Shown: positions 9,554 to 58,610 of the stretch, piece after piece
Numbering within the stretch: the stretch's first letter is position 1
Layout: each line of letters starts with the position of its first letter
IMG/VR virus record: IMGVR_UViG_3300023176_007781
Span: 27,209-91,208 of that record
Length of the DNA: 64,000 nt
Direction: 5' to 3' (one strand)
Source of the DNA: a virus
Made by a program: the position numbers and the translations under genes
The notes under the pieces: model-generated
Told to the model about the DNA's origin: nothing
Database searches by the model: none
The model's input: only the letters and a program-made list of their open reading frames with translations

Positions 9554-9554
9554 T

Positions 9555-12500
9555 TTAATTTCCACCATCGTGCAAGTCAAATATTTGTTTGATTAATATA
9601 ACCTGGTCATTATGCGTATCGTTAATTTCTGAGCTAGTTTTACTCATGGCAGGTACACCCTTGCTGTTATCTGCATAGTCAAAACCATATTTTTTAACTT
9701 GTTCTAAAAAAGCCTTACCATTGCTAGGCGTAATATTTTTTGTTATCCCCGGGCTACCAGTATTTGATTTATCAAAATATTTCTTTAACAGACAAAGAAG
9801 AAAGTATTCAAAAGGCATATCCAATATGTGCACATCATACATGCTGGTAGTTTTTCCCGGGTAAACTGCTGATAGAAGAGCTTTATAAAGCCTTTCTTTA
9901 CCAATATCGCCCATGTTGTAACCGCGATGCATTTTAACAGCTTTAAACACAAAGTCAATAAAAAACATAGTGTGACTGTCAGAAATTTTAAAATTGCTAG
10001 CAACAACAGGAATATCAGTGTTTTCTTTATTCAACCCAAAATGCCAACATATATAAAGTACTGTGTTTAGAGTTTGATAAAATTTATCATCAAGTCCGCT
10101 TAACATGTGGCCCTTAATTATATCACCACTGTTGTTGAATGTAACATTAGCTCTTTCATTATACATACTAGCAACTTTCGTATAAAATTCTTGTTCATCT
10201 GCAGCAGACATTTCAAGAGGAGGGTATTCATCACCAATATCCTGCACATGTTTATGTATTTTTCCTCTTACTATATGACTGGCAATATCTTGTAAAGTAT
10301 CCGACTTTATTATTTTGAGACCGCCTGAATGATAAACTTTATTATTTATAGTTTTGTACAATTCTTTCCAAGCGTTATAAGCATGTATAACATAAGCAGC
10401 TGGTAATATTTGTGTAAGTAATGTGCTCAGCTTATGAAACGTTACAGACTGAATATCCTTTATAAAATTGTTTTTAGAAACTAGTTCAAGTAATTGTTTT
10501 ATTGCAATTTCAGAAATATTGTGGTTTTCGACATGTATATCTTTATAGCCTATAGTTGATGCTGCGAATATAGCTGTGTTTATAAAACATGTTTTCTTAA
10601 GACCATCTGGCAGGTTTTTTGCGTGCAAGAGTAATGAAAATAAAATCTCAAATTTTTCTTTGCTTTCTTTCATGAAACTGCCGGCTTCAGCTGCATATTT
10701 TAACCGGTGAGAATTTTGGTTTAAACCAGCAGCTTCGTTTCTATCTTCTCCGCTTTCATACATTTTGTGCGTTAATACAAACCCTAATGATTTAGGAAAT
10801 TCTGCGTGGTCTTTAGCTTCCAGTAAAAAATCTAAGTATTTATCAAACACTTCCATAGATTGGTTGATTTCTGATAATGATGTTGCATTATCAAACAAAG
10901 CAAGAATCATATCATTAGTGTATGTTTCATGCCTTGCTCTTGTGTGCACGTCAAAATATGCTTCTACATCAGGATTTTCTTTAATATATTTTATATAAAA
11001 AGTTACTAATTTGTCAATATCAGAAACAGAATAATTTTTATAAATATTATTGACTTTCCCAACCCGGGTTTGATTCATTGCTTCTCTACCATACATAAAG
11101 TGCAATTCACCAATCATGCCTAAAAAATGATGTTCTATACATTTTTTATAAAACTGTTTTGACTTTTCATTCTTTAATTTTGAATAAAAGTTTCTAGATT
11201 TTTCGACCATATTAAAAAAATCATTAGGGTTTGTAATATATTCACCTTCACCGAAAATGTCTGCCAAACAACTTTTAATAATATTAGTGACATGTATTTG
11301 CAAAGGTATATTAAAATGTGACAATATTTCTATTACATTGTAATGCAACATGTTTAAAAAATCAACAGCATCTTCCTGTGCCCAATCCTGAGTGTTTTCG
11401 CCATTGTCAATGGCTTTATAATCTTTTTCAAATTTATCAGTATCTATTCTACCATTTTTAACATAGCATTGCACCATTACCACTTGAGCTGTTTCTGTCT
11501 GTTTTTTCTCTTCGTATTTTTTAATTGATAAATAACTCAATGGTTTTTCATAAAGGCTATCAAAAGCATCTGAACCATCTTTGTGTTTTAAAAACCTTAA
11601 ATTGCTTGTTCTTAAAAATCTTTGGTTGTAAGCACGTGAAATGCATGGGAAATTATGGCTAATTTTAAAACCAAGCAAATCACACATTTCATTTAAATAT
11701 TTCATATGACTTATTAACTTTTCTAAAATTTCATAACGCTTATTTAAATCTAATTCTAATGGCCATCCGCCCTCGTGATAACCTACTTCCTGATTTTCGC
11801 CTCTAGTAAATGGACTAGTAAAATTGTTTCTAGATATAAAGACTGATGATAAATAATTTTCACTGTAGGATCTATTTACTCTTGCAAGAAAATCTCCTTC
11901 TGAGTACGTATCATTAGCTCGATCATGTCTTCCAATATGATTTATTTGTCCTATCTCAAAACTGTAACTTGTTTTAAAACCAGCAGCAACTTCTTTCTTA
12001 AATGTACTTATTTTTTCCGATGCTGTGTTATAATAATTGCCCTGCATTTCATGAATTGGTTTATCATTTGTAACATTCTTGCTAGCAAATTTTTCGAAAA
12101 ACTTATCAAAAATTTTTACTTTTCTGTCCAAATCTAAAGAAACAATTTGCAAATCAATGTTACCTATATTGCTAGAATCAGTATAGTCTGCAGAAACTGG
12201 ATTATAACCCAAACTTTTTTGGAAAGCTTCATGTACATTTTCTGACGTCAGAAAAGATTCTTTTATGTCTTTTCCGCGGGCCACTTCCAACCTTGGACTA
12301 TTTAAATTAATAGGCGGTGCATAATGATTTCTTTCACTATTTATTTGCCAACTTTTAGAATTACCACTAATCGGATTATTCGCAATTAATGGCATTGCAC
12401 TAACGGGAATTGATACAACTTCGACATTAGGGTTTCTAATCAGTGAAAATATTCTAGAATTTATATTACTTATTAATTCATTTATTTTTTTTATGTATTC

Positions 12501-14513
12501 ATTATATAAGTTGTTTTCCTTAACAGCGTGAAGAAACCTAGTCCCGCGACTGCCATGAGCTGCAGGGTCATCATTTAACAAATGGTATATTAAATCGTCA
12601 AAATACACAGAAGTATTTAAAATTGGTACATGGATTAATAATTTTCCGTGTAAAAATAAAACTTTTTTCTTTTTAGAACGAGTATCATTCGACCAGTTGA
12701 AATTGTCAGAAAAATTCATTTGCAACAACGTTGCTGGCATCGAACCTTCTGGCGTAGGCAAAATTTTGCTATTATTTATTTTTTTATATTGATTAATCAA
12801 ATCTAAGTCAGCTTTTCGAATGTTTGGCGCCAAACTCGTAGTCCCTCTACCTTTCGGACTAAATATGCTCTCATCAGCCTTGTAAGAAAACCATTTTATT
12901 TCATCATCTCTACGCTCATCATAATTCTTGCCGAATGTTAACATTCTATCCAACCCATACACTTTCGCAAATGTAGTATTTACCATAGTTTGATTTAAGG
13001 GTTTTTGATTTCCACCGACATGTTTGTTCAGGCTGGTTTGATCTTTAATCGCGGCTGCAAAGTTAATTGGTTTATTAATTTCTTCTAATTTATCTCCCCC
13101 TTCTAAAGCATCATCAACTGCTGCCAATATATGAGCGCGTTTTATGTTTTCTAAATATTCAGCTGCATATAAGTTGTGCACAGCTCTGTTAAGCTTGCCA
13201 TAAGCTACACTGTCACTGCCTACATCACCATTCTTTGAATTAAAGATGTCTGACATTTTATATAAATCAAAAACTGCATCATCACGTGATTTAATAATAT
13301 TATCAATCAGATTAAAAATAAACTGACTTGTAACAATGCTAACAAAAGCATCTTCTTCTGCCTGCTTATCTGTGGGTAAATTAACGCCATAATTTCTTTG
13401 TTTTCTTAAAACTTTTCTAGCAATATCAGAATACATGTTAACAAAAGTGTTATGACTTTTATCCACCGGTGTAGATATTGTATTACGCTGTGTCGGTGGG
13501 TTTTTTGTAACTGCATTAAAATATTTCTTATTGTTAAAAATATCTAGCCTAATTTCATTGGTACAGTCTCCATCTAAAACCATGTTAATAGCATCTTCAG
13601 TTTCACTAGCACTTAAGCCTCGAATAAAATTTTGAAGTTCTTTTCTGTCTGTTCTTGCTAATTTAACTTTTTGTTTAGCAGGGTGCACCAAGTTGCCGTC
13701 TTTGTCTTTCCATCTTTTAGCATCTTCTAATATTTTTGCTTCCACTTTAGACCACGTAGATGCACCAAATATTTTTTTAACTCTTTCAACTGTAAGTCCA
13801 ATGTTGTCTCTATCAACGCTCAGTCCACCATTTTGGCCGTTAAGTCTTACTTTGCCATTATATAATCCAATTGAAAGAAAATCTTCAACGTCTTTTGCAT
13901 CATCTTTTATTACATAATATAAAATAATATCGGCTTCTTCTCTTCCGACGTAATTATAAAAAAGATTTGAGCCATGAATTCTAGCAGTACACCATGTAGT
14001 TTTTGGCATCATTGTCATTTCGTCATATTGAGCTATAACGCAGCTAGATTCGCGCGATAAAGGCACGTATATGTTCCAACCATCGATGTTACCTACTATT
14101 TCATCATTTTGTATTTCTACCGCTTCAATATCAAATGGTGGTTTCTTTCTTTCTCTTAAAACAATCAACATTTCCATTTCGTCAATTGTCAACTTCATTA
14201 TATCCCTAGGGTCGTTCCATTCTTTGTCAGGTAACATGCGATTTACTACATTAACAAATTGTTTATCTCTGAATTTTGCATTAACACTATTTTCTACTTT
14301 ACTATATTTTTGTAGTGTTTCAAAACAATCTTCTATTGGATGTACTTCTTGCACTTTTTTAGAAACAAAGCGCGAGCTTAACCACATTAAATATTTATTT
14401 GGAAGTGTATTAATATCATCTGCATGTTGTGGATACAGCTTTATTAAATTTTTCTTATTTTCAACTAAAAGAAGTCTTTCTATTAATAGTTTTTGCACAT
14501 TCTGATCTAACAT
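9555..14513 (-). CDS. Giant 'WCTAR' paralogue 2, putative packaged or structural protein
   Basis: At 1,652 residues this is the largest product in the window. Its N-terminal 300 residues match the downstream giant gene: a helix ending LLLVE (residue 18), HADDINTLPNK, EVHPIEDCFETL, then SSCVIAQYDE and TTWCTARIHGSNLFYNYV (Trp175). The two diverge further on, and the remainder is long, mostly helical and without a recognised domain. An AGGAG ribosome site lies seven bases before the ATG. A polar stretch at about residues 585-690 and many small predicted segments suggest several domains. The size, the duplication and the L-x-E N-terminus fit a structural or ejected virion protein, but that is inference. 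Confidence 0.85.
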   Translation of the reverse strand: MLDQNVQKLLIERLLLVENKKNLIKLYPQHADDINTLPNKYLMWLSSRFVSKKVQEVHPIEDCFETLQKYSKVENSVNAKFRDKQFVNVVNRMLPDKEWNDPRDIMKLTIDEMEMLIVLRERKKPPFDIEAVEIQNDEIVGNIDGWNIYVPLSRESSCVIAQYDEMTMMPKTTWCTARIHGSNLFYNYVGREEADIILYYVIKDDAKDVEDFLSIGLYNGKVRLNGQNGGLSVDRDNIGLTVERVKKIFGASTWSKVEAKILEDAKRWKDKDGNLVHPAKQKVKLARTDRKELQNFIRGLSASETEDAINMVLDGDCTNEIRLDIFNNKKYFNAVTKNPPTQRNTISTPVDKSHNTFVNMYSDIARKVLRKQRNYGVNLPTDKQAEEDAFVSIVTSQFIFNLIDNIIKSRDDAVFDLYKMSDIFNSKNGDVGSDSVAYGKLNRAVHNLYAAEYLENIKRAHILAAVDDALEGGDKLEEINKPINFAAAIKDQTSLNKHVGGNQKPLNQTMVNTTFAKVYGLDRMLTFGKNYDERRDDEIKWFSYKADESIFSPKGRGTTSLAPNIRKADLDLINQYKKINNSKILPTPEGSMPATLLQMNFSDNFNWSNDTRSKKKKVLFLHGKLLIHVPILNTSVYFDDLIYHLLNDDPAAHGSRGTRFLHAVKENNLYNEYIKKINELISNINSRIFSLIRNPNVEVVSIPVSAMPLIANNPISGNSKSWQINSERNHYAPPINLNSPRLEVARGKDIKESFLTSENVHEAFQKSLGYNPVSADYTDSSNIGNIDLQIVSLDLDRKVKIFDKFFEKFASKNVTNDKPIHEMQGNYYNTASEKISTFKKEVAAGFKTSYSFEIGQINHIGRHDRANDTYSEGDFLARVNRSYSENYLSSVFISRNNFTSPFTRGENQEVGYHEGGWPLELDLNKRYEILEKLISHMKYLNEMCDLLGFKISHNFPCISRAYNQRFLRTSNLRFLKHKDGSDAFDSLYEKPLSYLSIKKYEEKKQTETAQVVMVQCYVKNGRIDTDKFEKDYKAIDNGENTQDWAQEDAVDFLNMLHYNVIEILSHFNIPLQIHVTNIIKSCLADIFGEGEYITNPNDFFNMVEKSRNFYSKLKNEKSKQFYKKCIEHHFLGMIGELHFMYGREAMNQTRVGKVNNIYKNYSVSDIDKLVTFYIKYIKENPDVEAYFDVHTRARHETYTNDMILALFDNATSLSEINQSMEVFDKYLDFLLEAKDHAEFPKSLGFVLTHKMYESGEDRNEAAGLNQNSHRLKYAAEAGSFMKESKEKFEILFSLLLHAKNLPDGLKKTCFINTAIFAASTIGYKDIHVENHNISEIAIKQLLELVSKNNFIKDIQSVTFHKLSTLLTQILPAAYVIHAYNAWKELYKTINNKVYHSGGLKIIKSDTLQDIASHIVRGKIHKHVQDIGDEYPPLEMSAADEQEFYTKVASMYNERANVTFNNSGDIIKGHMLSGLDDKFYQTLNTVLYICWHFGLNKENTDIPVVASNFKISDSHTMFFIDFVFKAVKMHRGYNMGDIGKERLYKALLSAVYPGKTTSMYDVHILDMPFEYFLLCLLKKYFDKSNTGSPGITKNITPSNGKAFLEQVKKYGFDYADNSKGVPAMSKTSSEINDTHNDQVILIKQIFDLHDGGN

Positions 14514-19748: not shown

Positions 19749-20693
19749 TTAGCTTTTTCCATATTTTTCAACGCGGTTAAAAATGTCAAAATTCAACCGA
19801 AAGTCATGAGCATATCGATCGCCACCCTTGCCGTCTTCGCCTAGCAGAGGTCTAATCTTATTTTTCTTTTGATCACCATGCTCGTAGTAATTCAAAAAAT
19901 TCAATATGCCTTCTACACATTCTTTTATTGCTTCATCGCTAAAGTTTAAAATTGGTCCATCATCCCTTTTGTTTTCAGGCACGAAATATATAGGGTTTGA
20001 ACCTCTATCTTCTGTTTCAGGACGGCTAGTGCCGAAGAATAACTTTTGTACTTCTCCGGTCTTGTCGGATAAATATTTTTTTCCATATTTTTTACCAACA
20101 GCATCAACACCGGCCGGTATACCAACATGTTGACGTGCTTTGGAGGGTTTATCGAAGCCTAAAGCTATATCACGCGGAGAAAATGTAGCACTAATTTCTT
20201 GATCCTTATGTGCAGCATTTTTTTCCTTTTCTTTGTGGATAACATAATCATGTTTAGGTATTGACCCACCAAGCTTGTCTTCCAATAAAACTAATTTTCG
20301 TTTGGTCAATTTAATTACTGGTACTTTGCCGCTAACTTCCAGGAGTGCTGAAATACTAACATTTGCATATTTTTTCTGTGTTTCAGTACTATATTCACCG
20401 ACTGAAGTTTTGGCTAATATTGGTAAATCTCTTATGTCAATGTTTAATTCGAGCCTTGGGTGTGCTGCATTTCGATCTGCTTGTAAATCATAATACCTCA
20501 GATCAACCTTCACTGGCGTTTGCATAGTAAGAAAATTATAAATGTTAGATGCACCTCGCCCTAATGAACCCATAAACTCACCAGTGTGTATTTTCACCCG
20601 GTCCATAAATGTCTCTTGCAACAAGTCTCTTACACGCTTCCTAGCATATTCCTCAGCAATAATCTTTTTCAAAGTTGTCTTTTTAATTTTCAT
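19749..20693 (-). CDS. A-tagged hypothetical protein, paralogue of the next gene upstream
   Basis: The 314-residue protein starts with MKIKKTTLKKIIAEEYARKR and a LLQE end (Glu27). After the tag it is strand-rich, with VKVDLRYYD and RLELNIDI, then a basic middle and a C-terminal region containing LLGEDGKGGD. The upstream neighbour has the same tag almost letter for letter and an LLGDD near its C-terminus, so the two are tandem duplicates that diverged. No catalytic motif is recognised. It lies at the end of the A-tag cluster. Confidence 0.8.
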   Translation of the reverse strand: MKIKKTTLKKIIAEEYARKRVRDLLQETFMDRVKIHTGEFMGSLGRGASNIYNFLTMQTPVKVDLRYYDLQADRNAAHPRLELNIDIRDLPILAKTSVGEYSTETQKKYANVSISALLEVSGKVPVIKLTKRKLVLLEDKLGGSIPKHDYVIHKEKEKNAAHKDQEISATFSPRDIALGFDKPSKARQHVGIPAGVDAVGKKYGKKYLSDKTGEVQKLFFGTSRPETEDRGSNPIYFVPENKRDDGPILNFSDEAIKECVEGILNFLNYYEHGDQKKNKIRPLLGEDGKGGDRYAHDFRLNFDIFNRVEKYGKS

Positions 20694-20714
20694 AATACTA
20701 CCCCATATTTTAAT

Positions 20715-21398
20715 TTATGATAAATCGCCAGTTATATTCCAAGACCAAGTAGGGGTGTCATCACCTAGTAGTCTTCGGTTCTTACCACCATAAAAATAAT
20801 ATAATTTTTTTAATATTTGATCAGTTATTGATTTTACTGATTCTTTGGTTACAGGCCTGTCCCCATAAACACGTTTGTTCCTGCCATCTTCATTTGGCAC
20901 CATTTCACTGTAGAAAAAAGCTGGGCTTTGAAATTGGATGTCCTCACTTTTTTTGAGACCTTTTGTACCAAACGGACCTCCAAATCCATATTCACCCGTT
21001 CTTCTTGCAAAGTTCACCTGTGCATCAGGTCCCTTGAGACCCATTACAATAGGAACATCTCCGACATGTGTTACACGTGTGTCTCCATTTTTTAGCTGTT
21101 TTAAATTTAACTCTGCTCTGTACAAGAAGTGAGGAAAACTTGAGCTGTGACGTGCAGAAATTCCGGAATTTTTTATTGTAAACTCAATTTTAAGATTATA
21201 ATCTTTTCCACGTGTATTTTCTTTAACTTCTACTTTTATTGCATCACGCATTCTTAACCAGTTATAAGCACCTTTCGCCATATTCAACACCGGTGATTGA
21301 TCAAAATCAAACATTCCCTCTTGCAACATGTCTCTTACACGCTTTCTCGCATATTCCTCAGCAATAATCTTTTTTAAAGCTGTCTTTTTAATTTTCAT
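20715..21398 (-). CDS. A-tagged hypothetical protein, paralogue of the next gene downstream
   Basis: The 227-residue protein begins MKIKKTALKKIIAEEYARKR and DMLQE, with a predicted cut after Glu27. The mature part opens with a short helix, then strands (IKVEVKENTRGKDYNLKIEF), a Gly-rich GEYGFGGPFGTKG near 137-149, and a C-terminal helix followed by LLGDDTPTWSW. It is shorter than its tandem paralogue mainly in the middle. I recognise no enzyme family. The start codon and ribosome site lie 13 bases after the upstream stop. Confidence 0.8.
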   Translation of the reverse strand: MKIKKTALKKIIAEEYARKRVRDMLQEGMFDFDQSPVLNMAKGAYNWLRMRDAIKVEVKENTRGKDYNLKIEFTIKNSGISARHSSSFPHFLYRAELNLKQLKNGDTRVTHVGDVPIVMGLKGPDAQVNFARRTGEYGFGGPFGTKGLKKSEDIQFQSPAFFYSEMVPNEDGRNKRVYGDRPVTKESVKSITDQILKKLYYFYGGKNRRLLGDDTPTWSWNITGDLS

Positions 21399-21411
21399 GA
21401 TATTACCCCCC

Positions 21412-22308
21412 CTATTGATATTTTTTATTTTTATTTTTGCTTAAGTCATAATAATCTTCAGCTTTTTTCTGCACTGCTTCCCTATCCGGATTGCCCTTTT
21501 CCCCATACATGAAATGACCAAAAGTTTCCAAATCTGACATGTCTGGAGCAGTACCAGTTCTTAAATCTATTTTACTACCAGGATTTAATTTGGATATATC
21601 TTTATTCACCAACTGTTGATGAAAATCTCGTCTTACATTCTCCGCATCACCAAAAGTTTGCGGCATGTTAAATATATTCTCATCAGCTTCACGCCAACCC
21701 TTAGAATAATTACGACGACTTTCAAAATCCCAACTGTCACCTTCAAAATCAAACATGTACTTGAAATAACCATTATCGCCAGATACCTTCCGGAAATTAT
21801 GTACAGGTCCCTTCAATGCTTTAGTCCCTAACCATGATGGTATATATTTATCCCATATCTGCATTGGGCTTTGTCTGTCTACCCTGCTTCCCCACCATCT
21901 GCCATCTAGATTTAAACCCAAAGTTTCATAATCATCACCAGACAACCTAGTTTTTCTAGGGTCACCATAATACCACAACAACAAATCTTCCAAACTATCA
22001 GGCACTTCTGACGTCAGAAAACTTTGCGTAGAAGACAAGTCAGACAATAACTCAACAGCCTTATCATAATCTCGTTTAGGCATTCTAGGATAGTATCTTG
22101 TAAGATTTTTGAGGTGCTCCAACGCCTGATCATACCTTAATTCCTTGTCAGATATCATACGCTTTATTTCCGCCACAATATCTTCAACAGGTACCTTCTC
22201 AGCAGCCATGCCCTGAAGTTTGTAGTATTCCTTCGTAGATTCATTAAGTCTAGACTTTCGACTCAGCTCCTCACGAATAATACGCTTTAACGCACCCTTT
22301 TTTATCAT
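21412..22308 (-). CDS. A-tagged hypothetical protein
   Basis: The 298-residue protein begins with MIKKGALKRIIREELSRKSR and LNE, a slightly shortened A-tag with its predicted cut after Glu23. The mature part is helical up to about residue 105 (KEYYKLQGMAAEKVPVEDIV and on), then aromatic and loop-rich with several tryptophans (RWWGSRVDRQSPMQIW; GDSWDFESRRNYSKGWREAD). No catalytic signature is visible. The tag agrees with its neighbours despite an unrelated body, as expected if the tag is a targeting module. Confidence 0.8.
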   Translation of the reverse strand: MIKKGALKRIIREELSRKSRLNESTKEYYKLQGMAAEKVPVEDIVAEIKRMISDKELRYDQALEHLKNLTRYYPRMPKRDYDKAVELLSDLSSTQSFLTSEVPDSLEDLLLWYYGDPRKTRLSGDDYETLGLNLDGRWWGSRVDRQSPMQIWDKYIPSWLGTKALKGPVHNFRKVSGDNGYFKYMFDFEGDSWDFESRRNYSKGWREADENIFNMPQTFGDAENVRRDFHQQLVNKDISKLNPGSKIDLRTGTAPDMSDLETFGHFMYGEKGNPDREAVQKKAEDYYDLSKNKNKKYQ

Positions 22309-22347
22309 TTAATTACCTTTTATTTAATTTTAGTATTAAATGTAATA

Positions 22348-22965
22348 TTATTTAAGCATGAGCCTAATTTTTCTTCTTATATTTTCTTCTAAATTATCTT
22401 CACTTGGATCATAAAGATTATCTTCTTTTTCGTCATAAAAGGTGTTAGGCAAGCTAGCTCTATGTTTTGCATAAGCTTCTGTATCACCGCCAGGGCCACT
22501 AACACTCAATTGACCACTTCTGTGTAATTTCATTAAATCAGATGAGCTTACATCAATACCAAGTTCCCTAGACAAATGACCAGCCCAGACATTACAGAAA
22601 TTTTCCACAACATCACCGCCTCTTCTTCTTACCGAACCCATATCCAATGATATTCTAGAACGATTGCCATATTTTTCTCGTTTCTCTCTGCTTGTTTTAC
22701 CTCTTAAACTTGTTTCATGTTTCATATTTTCCGCTGCTATGTTATGCGCCTGATGTCCAATAGATCTTTCTTGAGATCCCATATGCGAGCCATCTTTAAA
22801 TACGGCAAAAAATGTTGATGATAGCTCTCCATCAGGGCCTTTAGCTATATCTACATTTAACTGTTGTAGTTTTTTACCCGCACTCTCATTGAGCATACGT
22901 CTGAATTTTAGTCTTGTGTATTCTTCACGTATAATTTGTCTTAGTTGTTTTTTTGATATTTTCAT
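22348..22965 (-). CDS. A-tagged hypothetical protein
   Basis: The 205-residue protein shows the most typical A-tag in the window, MKISKKQLRQIIREEYTRLK then FRRMLNE (Glu27). The mature part is polar and basic, with DGSHMGSQERSIGHQAHNIA and many Ser, Arg and Gly residues, and ends in EENIRRKIRLMLK, a basic amphipathic helix that looks like a second, C-terminal copy of tag-like sequence. It contains no cysteine pattern or enzyme motif I know. Confidence 0.8.
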   Translation of the reverse strand: MKISKKQLRQIIREEYTRLKFRRMLNESAGKKLQQLNVDIAKGPDGELSSTFFAVFKDGSHMGSQERSIGHQAHNIAAENMKHETSLRGKTSREKREKYGNRSRISLDMGSVRRRGGDVVENFCNVWAGHLSRELGIDVSSSDLMKLHRSGQLSVSGPGGDTEAYAKHRASLPNTFYDEKEDNLYDPSEDNLEENIRRKIRLMLK

Positions 22966-22976
22966 GGTTGTCCCCC

Positions 22977-23216
22977 TTAATATGAGCTAATAGCTTCTTC
23001 AATTGTTTCTATATTTGCATGTGGAAATTTTGATTGTATATATTCTATTAAACTTTCTTTGGTCATGACATCTAATAAATGATCTATTTCATCCATAGCT
23101 AATCTAATTGAATCTACTAAATCTTCATTAATCTCTTCATTAAGTATCCTGCGATTTTGCAAACGCACATACTCTTTTCTGATAATTTGCTTTAATTGCT
23201 TTTTTGATATCTTCAT
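22977..23216 (-). CDS. Small A-tagged protein
   Basis: Only 79 residues long, it has the full tag MKISKKQLKQIIRKEYVRLQ and NRRILNE (Glu27), leaving about 52 acidic residues after the predicted cut. That remainder (EINEDLVDSIRLAMDEIDHL and on) is a helical acidic peptide with no known match. It shows that the tag is kept even on very small cargo, like the small internal proteins of T4. Confidence 0.75.
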   Translation of the reverse strand: MKISKKQLKQIIRKEYVRLQNRRILNEEINEDLVDSIRLAMDEIDHLLDVMTKESLIEYIQSKFPHANIETIEEAISSY

Positions 23217-23339
23217 TTGCTTCCTTAAAATCTATACCAATAAATATAAACAACAAAATAAAAAACACGAAAAACTTTTGGCGCGCGATACACCCATAGA
23301 TCACCACGTACAACAATGTCTAGGCTCCCCCTAGACATC
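23217..23339 (-). other. Intergenic hairpin region
   Basis: This 123-base gap holds a nine-pair hairpin, ATGTCTAGG (23316-23324) with CCTAGACAT (23330-23338), immediately after the stop of the gene at 23340. A GC-rich stretch with GGCGCGCG follows, then an A/T-rich leader to the next ATG. No T-tract follows the stem, so it may be an attenuator, an RNA-processing site or a weak terminator. Confidence 0.5.
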
Positions 23340-23735
23340 TTATGCAACAGATCTCCGCGGCAAATTATCAATCACAACCTGCTTCAATTCCTGCCTAAAC
23401 TGCGGATCATTTTTATTTTCCAACAACCAAGCTGTTACCTTTGCAGCTGCACCAGGCAAACCAAAAAACCCAGGCATCGTTGGTGGTATTACAGTTTTCA
23501 CACCAGAATTATACAATGTCTGATACTGTTGCCAGTTTATAACACGGCACCTTTTATAAACATACTCACGAGCCTCAGTAGCATATTTTCCTTTTACTAA
23601 ACCAAATACCGCGCCTTTTAAATTACCAGTCTGCGCCTTGTCAGCCAAACCATTAAGGTAATCTTCTAACCCCGGGTCAATAGACTCACGAAGAATCATT
23701 TCATATATTAATTTTCTTATGTACCTTCTTAACAT
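23340..23735 (-). CDS. B-tagged small hypothetical protein
   Basis: The 131-residue protein starts MLRRYIRKLIYEMILRESID. There are two possible L/I-x-E ends, after Glu12 and after Glu17. The rest includes a GLVKGKYATEAREYVYKRC helix and VIPPTMPGFFGLPGAAAKV, with no recognised catalytic motif. This is the first B-tag met when reading down into the otherwise A-tagged stretch. Confidence 0.75.
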   Translation of the reverse strand: MLRRYIRKLIYEMILRESIDPGLEDYLNGLADKAQTGNLKGAVFGLVKGKYATEAREYVYKRCRVINWQQYQTLYNSGVKTVIPPTMPGFFGLPGAAAKVTAWLLENKNDPQFRQELKQVVIDNLPRRSVA

Positions 23736-23741
23736 GTAATA

Positions 23742-24263
23742 TTACTCCGGGAGAAATAATTCTAATAATTTAATTACTTGGTCTTCTCGACCATATCTAG
23801 CTATTAAATCGGGCCAAGTTTCAGATTCATCTGTACTCCCGGGAGGCCGGCCCATTTGAGTTAAATAATTGATATCGACATGTTCTTCTAGAATATTGTT
23901 CCTAATCCAGTCGCAGTAACCAGCACATCTTCTCAACATTTCTATTAATGCATCAATTTGTTTGTGTCTGATATTATCATCAATGTCCCACCAATTATAT
24001 GCCTCTATTTCTAGAAATTTAGCATTTCTAATTACAACCCAGTTTTGTGGTCTTTCGTAACTATATTCATCACCATATAATTCATGCAAATATGAATCAT
24101 GATCGATTACATGACTTTTATCCGGATTAGCCATTCGATATTCTTCTATATCATGCAAATTGCCTTGATCATCGATGAAACCAAATGATATATAATTACA
24201 GGCTGTGTTAGAAGTTTCTAACAGTATGTTTCTAATATATTTTCTTAGTGCGAAGCCTAGCAT
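23742..24263 (-). CDS. B-tagged hypothetical protein
   Basis: The 173-residue protein begins MLGFALRKYIRNILLE with a predicted cut after Glu16. Its body includes YISFGFIDDQGNLHDIEEY, which resembles a short beta-hairpin, and a Trp- and Asp-rich middle (EAYNWWDIDDNIRHKQ). It overlaps the upstream gene by 32 bases, so its tag and the C-terminal tag-like end of that gene are encoded by overlapping DNA in different frames. No alternative start preserves the tag. Function unknown. Confidence 0.75.
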   Translation of the reverse strand: MLGFALRKYIRNILLETSNTACNYISFGFIDDQGNLHDIEEYRMANPDKSHVIDHDSYLHELYGDEYSYERPQNWVVIRNAKFLEIEAYNWWDIDDNIRHKQIDALIEMLRRCAGYCDWIRNNILEEHVDINYLTQMGRPPGSTDESETWPDLIARYGREDQVIKLLELFLPE

Positions 24264-25233
24264 TGTTTAATCTCATTTTTCTTCTATATTCTTCTCGTAT
24301 TATTTTCTTAAGAGCAGACTTAGGTATTTTGTAAGATTCAAGCTTGTGAATACCTTTCTTCCCCTGTGATAAAGCAGGCGAAATAGTATCAGTAACAAAC
24401 TTAGCCGTACCAAATAATTCTATGGCTTGTTTAACCCATGCAATCGGACCAGCAAACTGTTCAATCGCTTTACCTGCTAATTTTTCCACAAGCTCCTGAA
24501 TTTTGTTCTTGAACTCTTCGACAAAACCAAATTTTTCTTTAATAACATCAAACACTTTTTCCTTGACAGCATCTAAAACATCTTCCTTTGCATCTTCTAT
24601 TTTACCAGTAAGATAGTCTAATACTTCCCCTTTAAAATGTTTAACTGGTTCTTTTAATATTTCAATAGCATTACCTAGCTTGTCACTGATTTCAAAATTA
24701 TCATCTAAATATTTTACACCTAGTATATACGCTAAGTTTGACAACAAGCCTTTCCAACCAGAGATTTTTGCTACACTAACTCTGAAACTATCTATAGTCT
24801 TAGCAATCTTATACAAGCCTTTTGCAAATGTTGGCATGTTGTATTTTTTTAAATAATCGCCTATTTTATTAATTTTGTTAGCAATATTTTTACCTGCAGC
24901 CCTCCCGGAGTATTGCACGAAAACATTAATCTGCTTAAGCATTTTTCCATTTTGCACAGCTGCTGTAAGAGCAGCAACAATACCCTTGACGTCTGAACCA
25001 AATTCGTTTATTGCTTCGATTGGCTCCATGGCCTTTTTTTTAATTTTATTAAAACCCTTACCTAGAAATTTTTTAGCAGGATCCCACCAACTTTCAAAAA
25101 GCAAATGTTCTCTAAGAATTGCCTCTTGTAGCTGGATATTATAACGACCCTCAACTAGTAATCCGCGTTCGAAACCTAGTACCTCTACGATATAATTTTC
25201 ACTTAACTCATGCGGTGTTATTAAACTTGACAT
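24232..25233 (-). CDS. Amphipathic helical protein with a C-terminal A-tag-like segment
   Basis: The 333-residue protein is almost entirely helical and amphipathic, with Lys, Val, Ala and Ile patterns at 70-290 (KAMEPIEAINEFGSDVKG; EDVLDAVKEKVFDVIKEKFG). Its N-terminus lacks the common tags but contains GLLVE (Glu28) and LLFE (Glu47), possible L-x-E sites. The C-terminus KIPKSALKKIIREEYRRKMR is a clear A-tag sequence, placed at the end instead of the start. This could be a reversed targeting signal or a remnant of a fused neighbour. The helical body could bind membrane or DNA. AAGGAG precedes the ATG. Confidence 0.8.
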   Translation of the reverse strand: MSSLITPHELSENYIVEVLGFERGLLVEGRYNIQLQEAILREHLLFESWWDPAKKFLGKGFNKIKKKAMEPIEAINEFGSDVKGIVAALTAAVQNGKMLKQINVFVQYSGRAAGKNIANKINKIGDYLKKYNMPTFAKGLYKIAKTIDSFRVSVAKISGWKGLLSNLAYILGVKYLDDNFEISDKLGNAIEILKEPVKHFKGEVLDYLTGKIEDAKEDVLDAVKEKVFDVIKEKFGFVEEFKNKIQELVEKLAGKAIEQFAGPIAWVKQAIELFGTAKFVTDTISPALSQGKKGIHKLESYKIPKSALKKIIREEYRRKMRLNNARLRTKKIY

Positions 25234-25244
25234 TGATTTACTCC

Positions 25245-25565
25245 TTATTGTATATTCATTTGACTTTCAAAATGTAGTTGAACAGCTGCTAATACTCCCG
25301 CTTCAGCATCTTCACAGCCCATCTCAATACAGCACTCTCTTACACATTTATGCATAGTGATACTAAAACGTCGACCCTGCATTAATTCAAGTTCGACTTT
25401 CGTACGATGTAGATTTAGTTTTTCTATACATTTCTTGATGCATTCTTCAACAATATCAGCTGACGACTCGTTCAGAGTGCTGAATGCGTACGCGTTCCAC
25501 AATCTTCTGTGTCTTGCATACTCTTCCTTAATAATACGTTTTAGTGTCTTTCTAGATATTTTCAT
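25245..25565 (-). CDS. Small A-tagged protein with paired cysteines
   Basis: The 106-residue protein has a long A-tag, MKISRKTLKRIIKEEYARHR, and then a spacer to STLNE (Glu33). The mature part has five cysteines in ECIKKCIEKL, KCVRECCIEMGC and a final acidic stretch. The C-x3-C spacing, repeated after about 25 residues, resembles a coiled-coil-helix (CHCH-like) or metal-binding hairpin. It could be disulfide-bonded after delivery. No family is recognised. Confidence 0.75.
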   Translation of the reverse strand: MKISRKTLKRIIKEEYARHRRLWNAYAFSTLNESSADIVEECIKKCIEKLNLHRTKVELELMQGRRFSITMHKCVRECCIEMGCEDAEAGVLAAVQLHFESQMNIQ

Positions 25566-25581
25566 ATTTATCTCCTAACTA

Positions 25582-26217
25582 TTATATATCTTCCATATAT
25601 GCCCACTCGAACATGCTATATTCGTCTGCGTCTTTTAACCAAGCATCACAAAACTGTTTATAAGTTTCATAATCCAACCCAAAGACACCTTTATCATTAT
25701 TAATTTCAGCCTGATTTACCATCCATTGAAAAGATCGAGTATCATCACCACACCCCTCAATTGTAGGTAAATTATAACCCATCATAAAACTGTCCTCCCA
25801 GAGTTGAATTAATTTGCTTCGCTTTTGCATAAAATATGACGCAACTGTGTCTTCAAATCTTGAAAGTATACTTTTAACATCTTTAAAAGATGGACAGTCG
25901 CCTTTTTCAGGGTGAGTTATACGTGTGCGTTTATCATATTCGCCCATAGGGTCCTTATGTATTTCGTCATCATCCGAAAATTCATGATATGGTCCATATT
26001 GTGGTTTATAACCTGCACCTTTAGCTAGATGATCTGCATATTTTCTATCACTGGTTTTTAAGTCCCTTAATTTCCCAACATGGTCTGGCTTAAGTTGATC
26101 AGCTGGGTCTTCGTCTGGCACAGCCATAGTACCTGCAGGTCCGGATATAAAAGACTCGTTTATTCTTCTATATTCTTCTCGTATTATTTGTCTTAACCTT
26201 TTCTTAGATATTCTCAT
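25582..26217 (-). CDS. A-tagged hypothetical protein
   Basis: The 211-residue protein has the short A-tag MRISKKRLRQIIREEYRRIN with Glu21 at the predicted cut. After a Gly/Pro-rich linker it is polar with many Asp, Tyr and His residues (YGPYHEFSDDDEIHKDPMGEY), then a helical C-terminal half (CPSFKDVKSILSRFEDTVAS). No catalytic motif is recognised. It sits in a run of A-tagged genes separated by 1-20 bases. Confidence 0.78.
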   Translation of the reverse strand: MRISKKRLRQIIREEYRRINESFISGPAGTMAVPDEDPADQLKPDHVGKLRDLKTSDRKYADHLAKGAGYKPQYGPYHEFSDDDEIHKDPMGEYDKRTRITHPEKGDCPSFKDVKSILSRFEDTVASYFMQKRSKLIQLWEDSFMMGYNLPTIEGCGDDTRSFQWMVNQAEINNDKGVFGLDYETYKQFCDAWLKDADEYSMFEWAYMEDI

Positions 26218-26218
26218 G

Positions 26219-27022
26219 CTATTTCCTTGAAGGCAATGTGCCGTAATGATAATACTTCATAGTATCTTTATATTGCTTTCGTAAACTTTTAATAGCTTCT
26301 CGAATCATTTTTAATGCTTGTCGACCATCCGAAAAAGAAGCAAGATCCTGACGATCTTTTTCATACTTAGCATCACTCAAATACTTTTCCAAATTGTTAG
26401 CTGCCCTAATGATATCCTTTTCTAAAACAAAATTATTAATGTATTTATGAAGCCTGGTTCTGTCCGCCAAGTCTTGACCAAAAAACCCGATGTCGGATCC
26501 TTTAAAACCAAACTCATTCCCAGTATCACTTTCCATTCTTTCATTAATTGTTTTTATCCATATATCTTCAGCTACACGGGACAAATTATAAACTTGATTA
26601 TTTGTATAACCACGCAAATTCAACATAAAAGGAGGTATACGATCGTCAAAGTTTCTATCAACTGTACCCGGACCATCAGGGTTAGGTACCTCTTCATCAT
26701 GTATTCTTGATATCATTTCCATTTCTTCTGTATAGCCTTTACTTTTATCATAAAACCCGTACGGCTCATTAATTAATGGTGCAACTAATGCATCCGTTTG
26801 CTTGCCATCATCAGCCCGCAAAGTGGCTAACTTATCACCATACTTTTCTTTCTGTTCATCAGACAAATACTCTTCCGGAGGCTTACGACGATTTGGAGCA
26901 TTTTTTGTAAACCAATGTTGATACGTGTGCGGCAATGACCGTTGAACCAAATTAGGCTGAGTTATAACGTTTTCAATCGCTTCTCTAATAAAATATCGAA
27001 GTTGCCTTTTTGTAAGCCTCAT
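26219..27022 (-). CDS. A-tagged protein, PHTYQ paralogue 1
   Basis: The 267-residue protein begins MRLTKRQLRYFIREAIENVI, an A-tag variant with FIRE at 11-14. It shares its whole body with the protein at 27609-28415: SLPHTYQ, the PE.Y.S.EQK.KY pattern, an NEPxGxYDxSKGxTEE block and a C-terminal YL(S/T)DAKY helix pair ending K(Q)YKxxMKxY. The two were produced by duplication, now separated by one unrelated gene. I recognise no fold. The high conservation of the NEP-YD-KG block suggests an active or binding surface. Confidence 0.8.
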   Translation of the reverse strand: MRLTKRQLRYFIREAIENVITQPNLVQRSLPHTYQHWFTKNAPNRRKPPEEYLSDEQKEKYGDKLATLRADDGKQTDALVAPLINEPYGFYDKSKGYTEEMEMISRIHDEEVPNPDGPGTVDRNFDDRIPPFMLNLRGYTNNQVYNLSRVAEDIWIKTINERMESDTGNEFGFKGSDIGFFGQDLADRTRLHKYINNFVLEKDIIRAANNLEKYLSDAKYEKDRQDLASFSDGRQALKMIREAIKSLRKQYKDTMKYYHYGTLPSRK

Positions 27023-27042
27023 AGAAGCCTCCTTTGTTATGA

Positions 27043-27489
27043 TTAGGTGTTTTCTTCATCAGTACCGGGCATGACACCATACTTTTCGTATTCCCAACCA
27101 TCTTCTTGCCAATCGACAACATCCGGTGATACAGATCTCAATTGATTTTTTCTCCTTCTGTCTGAAGGCAATTCTCCACCTTCAGGTACATCATGATATT
27201 CTTTCCAGATGGTCAGAGCACGAAACAAAATATTGTAACACTCTTGGTCCTTTCCTTCTCGAGCAGACTTAAGTCCGTTAGCAGGATTCTCACCTAAAAG
27301 AAACGCAAAAGCTAGTTGTTCCTCTGTCGCTTCAGGAAACAATTCTTTTAATTGCAAACACATCTCATGAACAGGGTGGTGGTTTTTCATGCCTAGGTGA
27401 TACCCAACAGTGCCGGCAATGCCTTCTTTTATAACTTCCTGATATTCTTCTCGAATAATTCTTTTGAGTTGTCTTTTTGTAATTTTCAT
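27043..27489 (-). CDS. A-tagged small protein
   Basis: The 148-residue protein starts with MKITKRQLKRIIREEYQEVI and KE (Glu22). The mature protein is mostly helical in its first two-thirds (GYHLGMKNHHPVHEMCLQLK; EATEEQLAFAFLLGENPANG) and acidic at the end. The LKELFPEATEEQLAFAF stretch resembles a UBA-like three-helix bundle (CUE type: LkelFPeatee.l..aL). Such a bundle in a phage would be curious, and I consider it a weak similarity. Confidence 0.76.
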   Translation of the reverse strand: MKITKRQLKRIIREEYQEVIKEGIAGTVGYHLGMKNHHPVHEMCLQLKELFPEATEEQLAFAFLLGENPANGLKSAREGKDQECYNILFRALTIWKEYHDVPEGGELPSDRRRKNQLRSVSPDVVDWQEDGWEYEKYGVMPGTDEENT

Positions 27490-27516
27490 TTTATACCCCT
27501 TTTTGATAATTTCATT

Positions 27517-27603
27517 TTATAACCCTTTAGCATCCATCTGACCATCTTTGTATGCTTCCATCGCTTGTTCATAGTCATTCGGATAATCGTATTTTTGTGT
27601 CCT
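27517..27603 (-). pseudogene. Possible remnant of a reading frame
   Basis: The gap between two A-tagged genes contains an open frame RTQKYDYPNDYEQAMEAYKD and GQMDAKGL before a TAA at 27517-27519. It has no start codon at its beginning and follows an in-frame stop, but the composition looks protein-like. It may be the C-terminal stub of a decayed tagged gene or simply chance. Confidence 0.3.
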
Positions 27604-27608
27604 CTATT

Positions 27609-28415
27609 TCAGTTCTCTAACAATGGCATATACCAACCATCAGCAATTTGACCAGTGTAGTACCATTTCATTGCTGTCTTATATTGTTTTTCTAAACTTG
27701 AAACGAGGGTTTCCATGTCTGCCAATAATGTTTCGCCTCTGTAAGAATAATTAGAAACTATTTCTTCGCGATCATCCGCATATTTAGCATCTGTCAAGTA
27801 TTCCTCTATCTTGGCTTTCGCTGTAAGAATATCTTTGAGGGCAAGCTCGCTATAATAATCAAAAAGTCTAGATATGGCGTTTGTGCCAGTGTCTCTACCC
27901 CAAGGATTAGCTACACCGCTGGTCGAGTATATCTTGTATGCAGCTTTGTACACTATATTATAGTCATGATTTTCAGTTGCTAGCAATTTCTCAACTGTTG
28001 GAGGAACAGACTGTCGCCTTCTATGTAATAAATTCGCTGGATCCTCTGGGTCTGGGATATAATCTTCTGAGTGCATGCGATATAAAATATCTTGCTCTTC
28101 AGTGAAACCCTTACTTGAATCGTACCAACCAAACGGTTCGTTAACAACAGGACCAACTAATGCATCAGCTTGATGCGGATCAGTATTACGCAAATTTGCT
28201 ACCTTATCACTATATTTCTTTTTTTGCTCCGGAGAAAAATATGTCTCTGGAAACTTCCGCGACCACTTGCCCTGTTGCATCAGAGACTTCCAGTGCACGG
28301 GTTGGTATGTATGCGGCAAAGAAGCCACAACACGATTAGGCTCCATCATTTGAGATGATATAGCCTCTCGTATGACCAATCGCAGCTGCTTTAATTGTTT
28401 TTGTCTTCTATTCAT
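27609..28415 (-). CDS. A-tagged protein, PHTYQ paralogue 2
   Basis: The 268-residue protein starts at 28415, where MNRRQKQLKQLRLVIREAIS follows a GAGGGA ribosome site; the longer frame from 28445 lies inside the upstream gene. The tag is divergent but keeps the K/R-rich helix and VIRE. Its body matches 26219-27022 over its length (SLPHTYQP, ALVGPVVNEPFGWYDSSKGF, EYLTDAKYADDREE, KQYKTAMKWYY). The pair is the clearest A-tag duplication with a long conserved body. Function unknown. Confidence 0.78.
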   Translation of the reverse strand: MNRRQKQLKQLRLVIREAISSQMMEPNRVVASLPHTYQPVHWKSLMQQGKWSRKFPETYFSPEQKKKYSDKVANLRNTDPHQADALVGPVVNEPFGWYDSSKGFTEEQDILYRMHSEDYIPDPEDPANLLHRRRQSVPPTVEKLLATENHDYNIVYKAAYKIYSTSGVANPWGRDTGTNAISRLFDYYSELALKDILTAKAKIEEYLTDAKYADDREEIVSNYSYRGETLLADMETLVSSLEKQYKTAMKWYYTGQIADGWYMPLLEN

Positions 28416-28752
28416 ATATAGTCCCTCGAGGCGGTGTTGGTCCATAAACAGTTATATCTCTCATCTTTGGATCCGGATGACGCCTAGGCATTAAAATACC
28501 AGCTGATATACAATCCTGAATTAATGAAACACAAGTTTCCATATCAGCCTCCTCACCAAAAAGCTGTTTGTAAACCTGCCCGGCACAATGACAACAAACA
28601 TAACCATTCTTACTTGCCATAGCTTCCAACTGTTCTACACAATCCAACCAAACATCATCGAAAGCACTCTCATTAATACTATGTACCCGCGCTGCGCGGC
28701 GCGCATACTCTTCTCGGATAATTTTTTTCAACTGTCTTTTTGTAATTTTCAT
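28408..28752 (-). CDS. A-tagged small protein
   Basis: The 114-residue protein has MKITKRQLKKIIREEYARRA and a long spacer to SINE (Glu28). The mature 86 residues contain five cysteines (CVEQL, CCHCAG, CVSLIQDC), of which CCHC could bind a metal. The C-terminus (RRHPDPKMRDITVYGPTPPR) is proline-rich. It has no recognised family. The stop codon overlaps the start of the next gene by a few bases. Confidence 0.75.
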   Translation of the reverse strand: MKITKRQLKKIIREEYARRAARVHSINESAFDDVWLDCVEQLEAMASKNGYVCCHCAGQVYKQLFGEEADMETCVSLIQDCISAGILMPRRHPDPKMRDITVYGPTPPRGTIYE

Positions 28753-28769
28753 ACATTCCCCCCGCTTAT

Positions 28770-29084
28770 CTATCTATTACCGCCGGGTTGCTTTTCCAAC
28801 CACCGATGTAACCGTTTTTCTGATATACCCCGGGATTCACATGTCCAATTAACCATATCCTGGATAGACTTGTCAAACCCGGTCTCCAGTTCCATTAACA
28901 TGAAATTAATAGCTATATTCGCAATATCCTCTCTGCTTAATAACTTGCCAACATCAGAAGCCATTTTAGCATCACTCTTGCTTATAGCCTTTCTCCGTCT
29001 CTCATATTTTTCTTCGCCTATAGATTCCGCGCCAGCTATATGCTCTCTTATTATTCGTCTCAACCGCTTTTTAGATATTTTCAT
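28770..29084 (-). CDS. A-tagged small protein
   Basis: The 104-residue protein starts at 29084 (MKISKKRLRRIIREHIAGAE and SIGE, Glu24), because AAAGG lies seven bases before this ATG and it preserves the tag; the frame is open six codons further up. The mature part is helical (LLSREDIANIAINFMLMELE, TGFDKSIQDMVNWTCES) and ends basic. Its EDIANIAINFMLMEL helix could pack against another subunit. Function unknown. Confidence 0.76.
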   Translation of the reverse strand: MKISKKRLRRIIREHIAGAESIGEEKYERRRKAISKSDAKMASDVGKLLSREDIANIAINFMLMELETGFDKSIQDMVNWTCESRGISEKRLHRWLEKQPGGNR

Positions 29085-29110
29085 AATATAACCTTTGTAC
29101 ATGCATGTAG

Positions 29111-29530
29111 TTATCTACGTGGACCTTCTAACAAAGCTTTGTACATACGGGCCATCCGTAACAAACTTTCCGCCTGTTTTACTTCACCTACTTCACCATC
29201 TAGTCCACCCAGCTGTGATAGATATTCTTTCATTCCACTTAAATTTTCAATAGCTTTGGAAACACTTCCACTTAACATGTCCTTTTCGTACGGTGAGAGA
29301 TTCTTAGGTGGTCTCCCATCTTGCAAAACCTGAAGATAACCGGAATATACGTGATACATTCGCGGAGCACCGCCATGAGCTGCATGCAGTTTAGCCAAGC
29401 TATCAAATCGCTTTCTTGCTTCTTCGTATGGCGTCATGTTACGCATATCTTCATTTAGCATTTTACGTATACGCAAACGTGTATACTCCTCTTTTATAAT
29501 TCGTCTCAATTGCCTTTTGGATATTCTCAT
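29111..29530 (-). CDS. A-tagged small helical protein
   Basis: The 139-residue protein has a full A-tag, MRISKRQLRRIIKEEYTRLR and IRKMLNE (Glu27). After the predicted cut it is helical throughout, with KRFDSLAKLHAAHGG, YLQVLQDGRPPKNLS and a final MARMYKALLEGPRR. No enzyme motif is visible. It follows the upstream A-tagged gene by two bases. Confidence 0.78.
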   Translation of the reverse strand: MRISKRQLRRIIKEEYTRLRIRKMLNEDMRNMTPYEEARKRFDSLAKLHAAHGGAPRMYHVYSGYLQVLQDGRPPKNLSPYEKDMLSGSVSKAIENLSGMKEYLSQLGGLDGEVGEVKQAESLLRMARMYKALLEGPRR

Positions 29531-29532
29531 AA

Positions 29533-29988
29533 TTAAATCCCCCCAAATATCATATCTTCTAATTCATCATACATGTCCAATATGCTTTTATATTCGCCTA
29601 TCTCTTTACCGATCTGAGCTTCTTTGTCTTTATCAGACCAAGCGCGGTACTCCTCTCTTTCTAGGTTATTAAGTCTCTTCTTAATTTCCTTCTCAACTTC
29701 GCCACGTAATTTACTTTTATCAAGCCCATATTTTCTTGAATTTGCGATTTCTCGTGCCCACTCAGCAACTTCTTCTAGACTTTTGTAATCTCCGTACATA
29801 TCATACCCGGGTTCATTTTCATGGTGTAAGAAATAATCCATCCATTGGATCAACGAATCAGCAATATCACTCACGTACATATCACTTTGCATGTAACCGC
29901 CAGTGGCTTCGTTAAGCATTTTACGCACTTTTAACCGCGTATATTCTTCTCGTATAATTTGTCTCAATTGTCTTTTAGATATTCTCAT
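29533..29988 (-). CDS. A-tagged small helical protein, first of the A-tag operon
   Basis: The 151-residue protein has MRISKRQLRQIIREEYTRLK and VRKMLNE (Glu27), nearly identical to the tag of its downstream neighbour. The mature part is charged and helical (IADSLIQWMDYFLHHENEPG; KSKLRGEVEKEIKKRLNNLE). Upstream lies the GC-rich non-coding stretch, then a TATAAT-containing leader (near 30030), so this is probably the first gene of the A-tag transcription unit. A GGGAG ribosome site precedes the ATG. Confidence 0.8.
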   Translation of the reverse strand: MRISKRQLRQIIREEYTRLKVRKMLNEATGGYMQSDMYVSDIADSLIQWMDYFLHHENEPGYDMYGDYKSLEEVAEWAREIANSRKYGLDKSKLRGEVEKEIKKRLNNLEREEYRAWSDKDKEAQIGKEIGEYKSILDMYDELEDMIFGGI

Positions 29989-37372: not shown

Positions 37373-38218
37373 TTACCCATTTATTAAAGCATCTATTTTA
37401 TTTTTTTGACTTTTTGCAAAAGGACTCATGAGTTTTAATCGCTTATTACTTGCAAACCACGTTAGAAGACCCGGGTTTTTTTTGTAATAAACTTTTGAAA
37501 ATACATTGTTTGGGTCCTGAACATATTTTAAATATTTCGATGAAGGAGCTAAAGGCTTTGCAGTGTTTTTTAAAACGTCATCCTGGTGATCAACAAAATA
37601 TCCATATAATTCCATTGGGTCATCTGCCGGGCCATACAATTCTTGTACTTCAGGGTATGCATTTTCTACACCAATATCTATGGTTTTGCCATGTTGCTCC
37701 ATACTCCATTTGTCTGCACTCATAATATCTGCGCAATCATCTTCTGGGTCGTCTGTCAATGGACTGCCCGGCAAATCTAATTGCACAGTTTCTATGTCAG
37801 ATCTCAATTTAAGATATTTTTCCCAAACTTCTTGCGCTGCTACAGAAACTTCATATCTATCATTAACCAATCCGTGACCGCCGATTAAATACACCCATTC
37901 CATTAATGCATCGTAGCACACTGGTCCAAAACCCAGGACATGTGCCTTTGCCCACTTAACCATATATGCATCATTACATGGGCCGAAAGCTGTTTTATAT
38001 TTACCTTTTCTCATATGACTAGTTCTTGTGTACAAAAAGTCTATTGTTACTAACAACAAATCACCATTAAATAGTTTAATGTATCCATCACCCGCGTCAG
38101 CCATTTTTATGTGTAAATGTGGATCTTTTATTAGGCTTAACAAACTCCATATCTTTTCATCCGGCAAATCATTTGCTTCAACTAATATTGATCTAATATA
38201 TTTTCGTAAATTTTTCAT
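37373..38218 (-). CDS. B-tagged GNAT-like domain protein
   Basis: The 281-residue protein begins MKNLRKYIRSILVE (Glu14). It carries the same domain as its neighbours: CNDAYMVKWAKAHVLGFGPV, CYDALMEWVYLIGGHGLVND, RYEVSVAAQEVWEKYLKLRS and DIETVQLDLPGSPLTDDPED. The GPVCYD replaces GPLLYD. The C-terminal third is family-specific and may bind the substrate. Its start overlaps the stop of the metalloprotease-like gene (ATGA). Confidence 0.62.
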   Translation of the reverse strand: MKNLRKYIRSILVEANDLPDEKIWSLLSLIKDPHLHIKMADAGDGYIKLFNGDLLLVTIDFLYTRTSHMRKGKYKTAFGPCNDAYMVKWAKAHVLGFGPVCYDALMEWVYLIGGHGLVNDRYEVSVAAQEVWEKYLKLRSDIETVQLDLPGSPLTDDPEDDCADIMSADKWSMEQHGKTIDIGVENAYPEVQELYGPADDPMELYGYFVDHQDDVLKNTAKPLAPSSKYLKYVQDPNNVFSKVYYKKNPGLLTWFASNKRLKLMSPFAKSQKNKIDALING

Positions 38219-58597: not shown

Positions 58598-58610
58598 AAT
58601 TTTCCTCATA

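Follow-up and report, generated by a model that had tools for sequence, protein, structure and literature searches.

The internal proteins of phage T4 carry N-terminal capsid-targeting propeptides of 10-19 residues, and gp21, the prohead protease of T4, cleaves behind the motif L/I-X-E (PMC9026906). Capsid-targeting peptides have so far been known as N-terminal signals. C-terminal processing has precedent, since C-terminal peptides are removed from T4 Alt and from the prohead protease of SPN3US (PMC9026906, PMC10052503). At both of its ends gp21 processes Alt, a head-packed ADP-ribosyltransferase (PMC9026906), so that a C-terminal propeptide is already known from one T4 protein of the head. 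In giant phages such as SPN3US, many ejection proteins are packed in the head and lose propeptides to the prohead protease gp245 (PMC5694885, PMC10052503); the sole C-terminal propeptide reported there is that of the protease itself (PMC10052503).

The DNA analysed here is a stretch of 64,000 nucleotides (the window) in which about 36 genes carry one of two classes of short tag, A and B. Like the targeting sequences of T4 IPI, IPII and IPIII, these tags are short, stand on many otherwise unrelated proteins and end in L/I-X-E. The T4 sequences, however, are few and N-terminal, whereas the window holds two classes and one of its tags is C-terminal; moreover, targeting is putative here. The tagged proteins resemble the SPN3US ejection proteins in being many different candidates for head packing with propeptides cut by a prohead protease, but the SPN3US motif is AXE, its propeptides are mostly long and they form no shared short tag family. 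The protein with the C-terminal tag, P0001, differs from Alt in that no tag common to the N-termini of other proteins has been reported for Alt, and no homology between the two was found.

Two classes of putative head-targeting tag

Around P0001, 15 genes have an N-terminal A-tag with the consensus MKISKxQLKxIIREEYxRxxxRxxLNE, and 21 window genes have a B-tag, like MKNLRKYIRNILLE. They fall in two blocks of cargo-like genes, at 19749-29988 and 32176-55398. The gp21-type motif [LI]xE comes next after 13 of the 15 A-tags and 20 of the 21 B-tags, compared with 23% and 9% respectively in control windows of the same size taken from protein bodies. The A-tag recurs in many IMG/VR contigs, and all four A-tag relatives longer than 160 kb that were tested encode both Peptidase_S77 (gp21) and Gp23. 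The window belongs to a 91 kb virus record (G000), and a second record of the same phage (G001) has 99 kb; neither gp21 nor gp23 was detected in these two fragments, both of which are without head genes. With their [LI]xE ends, and with gp21- and gp23-like genes in the relatives, the tags look like T4-type capsid-targeting propeptides, an assignment that is strong by analogy. The A-tag would be a short basic, helical targeting peptide, normally at the protein start, that takes its protein into the assembling head and is then removed by a gp21-type protease cleaving behind [LI]xE. No printed occurrence of the A- or B-tag sequences was found in the papers searched. The same two-class system is seen in the relatives L220 and L215, and two parallel classes may be usual in such phages.

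Two adjacent giant paralogues of 1583 and 1652 aa (4829-14513) have similar N-terminal LLLxEN(K)K segments and LxE-like sites, and are possibly very large head-packed proteins. Two large untagged proteins, at 61405-63639 and 55850-58609, have an early LNE site (YFLNEF and FLLNET) and are perhaps further protease substrates. Beyond the window, G001 (L006 773-4931) seems by eye to encode the large and small subunits of carbamoyl-phosphate synthase, and this would be in keeping with a large phage that carries host-like metabolic genes.

An A-tag at the C-terminus of P0001

The original prediction, made from the letters alone, placed an A-tag at the C-terminus of a helical protein of 333 residues, and the analysis bears this out. 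With a profile built only from the N-terminal A-tags of other window genes, the C-terminal segment of P0001 (residues 302-321) was matched at E 2.5e-7 in a search of the near-identical 99 kb record, and in a set of 71 window genes it scored 25.7 bits, with unrelated matches below about 10 bits. In a position-specific scan of the 140 ORFs of the phage (about 29,000 windows) the tag scored 25.3, and every other window beyond residue 25 stayed below 6. A weak A-like segment, KQLSRAIKKEYLRQKM, ends a B-tagged protein of 429 aa (38215-39504), at 7.2 bits, near noise. The P0001 gene has a good ribosome-binding site (aaggagtaaatcaATG). Its product ends in ...HKLESYKIPKSALKKIIREEYRRKMRLNNARLRTKKIY or, when split at the junction, ...GKKGIHKLES-YKIPKSALKKIIREEYRRKMRLNNARLRTKKIY. 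In a model based on the family alignment (mean pLDDT 80) the tag forms a separate helix after a break.

Features of the P0001 locus, in window coordinates, and architecture of the family members with a tag-like segment behind the body
Feature	Position	Strand	Remarks
P0001 gene, 333-aa helical protein with C-terminal A-tag	24232..25233	-	ORF, start ATG, ribosome-binding site aaggag; remote family of 46 loci
Conserved N-terminal family segment, P0001 residues 14-47	25093..25194	-	predicted prohead-protease sites after E28 and E47
Junction KLES, P0001 residues 297-300	24334..24345	-	glutamate just before start-less tag, as in relatives
C-terminal extension, P0001 residues 301-333	24235..24333	-	missing in sister L252 (alignment, C-termini)
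A-tag core KIPKSALKKIIREEYRRKMR, P0001 residues 302-321	24271..24330	-	profile match E 2.5e-7, 25.7 bits; helix 305-332 in model
Next gene, 173 aa, N-terminal B-tag	23742..24263	-	overlaps P0001 at 24232-24263
B-tag core LRKYIRNILLE of next gene, partly within DNA of P0001 end	24216..24248	-	B profile 31.2 bits
27 bases in A-tag of gene 25582-26217	26163..26189	-	identical, in register, to 24279-24305 in P0001 tag
L217			body-TAES-TLREYVRELLSE/Q-second body
L214			body-KNES-VNMEMNEKKLRELIREALKE/NYN-second body
L215, sister of L214			tag-like end only; tag weak by profile score
L220			...NEALLRQVIREALLREAMA, then stop
L226			body, then nucleotidyltransferase-like body; tag weak by profile score
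P0001			body, then tag only

As had also been noted beforehand, the DNA of this end codes in another frame for part of the B-tag of the next gene, which starts MLGFALRKYIRNILLE...; the overlap is 32 nt. Such an overlap could mark a spurious extension, and it is the one feature that speaks for chance similarity, an assembly artefact or a gene-calling artefact. We regard these as scarcely credible given the E value of the profile match, its being the sole such match in the phage, and the agreement of the only two records, which are 100% identical over the 3.3 kb compared and have P0001 itself 100% identical (G001/L001). Moreover, 27 bases of the tag DNA recur identically, and in register, in a true tag. 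This run, which lies in the A-tag of the second gene upstream (25582-26217), is the longest shared by any pair of tags in the phage, exceeding even that of the near-duplicate tags of 19749 and 20715. Since the P0001 tag DNA is closest to this one, the donor may be a copy of that tag, which still exists, and not a lost neighbour. Beyond the shared bases the two differ by one base in length, and the P0001 tag there leaves the cleavage-site frame of the upstream copy.

The P0001 tag departs from the others at its end. Its core is intact, with 12 to 14 of 21 residues common with several other tags, and the cleavage glutamate is absent: it reads RLNNA, compared with RLNES in other tags, and RLNNARLRTKKIY is without the [LI]xE motif. 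The position is also not the N-terminal one of T4-type propeptides, since the tag occupies residues 302-321 of 333. With the glutamate missing, the tag may be left unremoved, be cut at KLE/S, or be a relic; a cut at KLE/S would need a protease that tolerates K at P3.

The helical family and the origin of the tag

Homologue searches with P0001 and its 173-aa neighbour among annotated phages and viral contigs returned the same phage only, a P0001 search of the first A-tag relatives gave one match (residues 275-320 only, mainly the tag), and close relatives of P0001 were absent from the collections searched. Only a sensitive search of ORFs close to A-tags in further relatives, followed by alignment, led to the family, and this alignment-based search gave remote homologues at 46 loci. 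P0001 belongs to a helical family of T4-like metagenome phages. Its body had only weak matches of helical stretches in Pfam and PHROGs, the single-sequence structure model was uninformative, and a fold search of PDB and BFVD with the pLDDT-80 model gave no match at E < 0.001 and no function for the body. A tail tape measure protein, raised by weak PHROG matches, was rejected because these were partial helical stretches without a fold match at that threshold.

All 34 family rows compared (P0001 and 33 others) share Y[VI]xxVLG[IVF]...LLxE(G/S/A) with two LxE-like sites, which suggests an N-terminal propeptide common to the family. In P0001 the predicted protease sites of the N-terminal 47 or so residues are LLVE28 and LLFE47. 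The claim that the N-terminus has no tag is right for the A- and B-tags, and incomplete in that this end is a conserved segment with two predicted protease sites. Most family members start with a third tag-like sequence, MSEMKLIMENWRxYLxE. Starts of this type were seen at family loci L222-L255, and also at L006 11485-12429 of this phage (MSNMKLIMESWRKFLLRE). Among P0001 and its relatives, P0001 and L214 alone are clearly without an N-terminal tag. An apparent inverse relation between N- and C-terminal tags across the family was set aside, as it rests on a loose N-tag pattern.

The proposed comparison with relatives that lack the C-terminal tag locates the fusion point. The closest relative is L252, a sister with 100/100 support and 37% identity in the alignment. 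Its end, ...ISRAKGPFNKL and a stop, aligns with ...LSQGKKGIHKLES/YKIPK of P0001, so that it stops two residues short of the start of the P0001 tag; at its N-terminus it has a tag-like sequence instead (MNNEQLLREVIRLSLVEQ). The body of P0001 is thus complete and the tag an addition, and the ancestral C-terminus would lie at about residue 298.

Six members of the tree (L217, L214, L215, L220, L226 and P0001) have something tag-like behind the body. In L214 and L217 the fused part is an entire tagged neighbour. The fused segment of L214 starts a separate gene in L165 (MKITKRQLRKLIE/SYNSMSPAG..., 57% identity over 90 residues), and the second bodies of L217 and L226 are separate ORFs, the former in L179 and L223 and the latter in L140. 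The C-terminal tag label changes five times on the family tree, and at least three changes are forced by well-supported branches. On this evidence, drawn from metagenome contigs that are not independent samples, tags were fused to the C-terminus on at least three occasions within the family.

Given the end of L252 and the fused neighbours that are free-standing elsewhere, capture is the best-supported origin, and we think it very probable that the P0001 tag was copied or captured from another gene and fused to the body. The fusion would have joined the body in frame to the first part of a tagged gene, or to a copy; the donor gene body is absent, and the added peptide would form its own C-terminal helix. 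The original suggestion that the gene captured the start of a neighbour is thus supported by L252 and by the pairs L214/L165 and L217/L179/L223, which are sister cases and not the P0001 tag itself. Likewise, relatives that have the segment as a separate gene, with the body ending earlier, occur in the sister cases and not for the P0001 tag; no free-standing gene with the same P0001-type tag was found among the relatives.

The other suggestion had been that the signal works from either end, and it may do so. In one such reading the tag was copied from N- to C-terminus within the genome and selected as an ordinary variant, without any captured gene. The upstream copy in gene 25582-26217 is still present, a tag-like segment is N-terminal in L252 and C-terminal in P0001, and an unrelated small protein has C-terminal tags in L098 and L103, all as this reading would have it. 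In L214, L217 and L226, however, a whole neighbour was fused and not a bare tag, and we hold such an origin to be improbable.

Start-less tags and the possible present role of the P0001 tag

Tags without a start codon of their own form a small class. Gene starts were set mechanically, several thresholds were chosen after the data had been seen and all evidence is sequence-based, and the following counts are to be read accordingly. Among 727 non-redundant A-type matches of at least 8 bits in the window and relatives, 704 start at a start codon or an open record end. Of the start-less tags of at least 9 bits, 17 of 22 have a glutamate in the four preceding residues, compared with 36% of ordinary tags in the upstream frame (38% if that frame is open). 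A ribosome-binding motif lies upstream of 27% of start-less and 63% of ordinary tags, which argues that the glutamate is not merely a translated ribosome-binding site. By these figures, the start-less minority is not random. P0001, with KLES/YKIPK, fits the glutamate-preceded class. Two candidates for a leader remnant before its tag were rejected: GAATCT is not a common leader, and the ribosome-binding motif is rarer at start-less than at ordinary tags.

About two dozen of 611 distinct N-tagged genes have a second tag, internal or C-terminal, and in two of these it is at the C-terminus. Two to four A-tags in one frame, in the order tag-body-tag-body, were seen at L108 2387-3697 (three to four tags), L098 4765-5391, L185 1537-3192 and L118 2191-2850. 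These ORFs have the appearance of polyproteins built from tagged modules, and most of the internal tags follow a glutamate. A small protein, MPFKSEKQRRW... (MPFKSEKQRRWMWANDPEMA...), bears an A-like tag at its C-terminus in the two contigs L098 (5760-5984) and L103 (11327-11533). Its N-terminal motif also occurs in cultured phages, where the match is to that motif only.

That start-less tags mostly stand just after a glutamate is compatible with continued use of the tag. The P0001 tag could nevertheless be a functionless relic, captured by fusion and now drifting, with head entry, if any, through the conserved N-terminal segment. The lost cleavage glutamate would suit a relic, as would the one-base length difference that follows the 27 shared bases, the short tail overlapping the next gene, and the retention in P0001 of the N-terminal segment with its two sites. 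Nevertheless the core of the tag is preserved, relatives repeatedly have start-less tags that follow a glutamate and have few ribosome-binding motifs, and both L214 and L215 retain a tag-like C-terminal end. A relic seems to us unlikely, and the prospect of continued function about even or slightly better. The reading we prefer, with moderate confidence for the account as a whole, is that the A-tag was added to the C-terminus of P0001 by fusion and probably still helps head entry, in place of the N-terminal tag of L252.

A broader and more tentative possibility, which we would not yet call probable, is that the tag works anywhere in the chain and that T4-like phages string tagged modules into polyproteins with glutamate junctions, to be freed in the head by the prohead protease, P0001 being cargo loaded through its C-terminus. 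If the repeated capture of C-terminal and internal tags is real, the targeting signal would tolerate other positions, and such captures would provide a model from nature for loading capsids through C-terminal tags or with several modules. Cargo genes would then evolve by tag shuffling together with gene fusion, and this would be a route by which large T4-like phages enlarge their set of head-loaded proteins.
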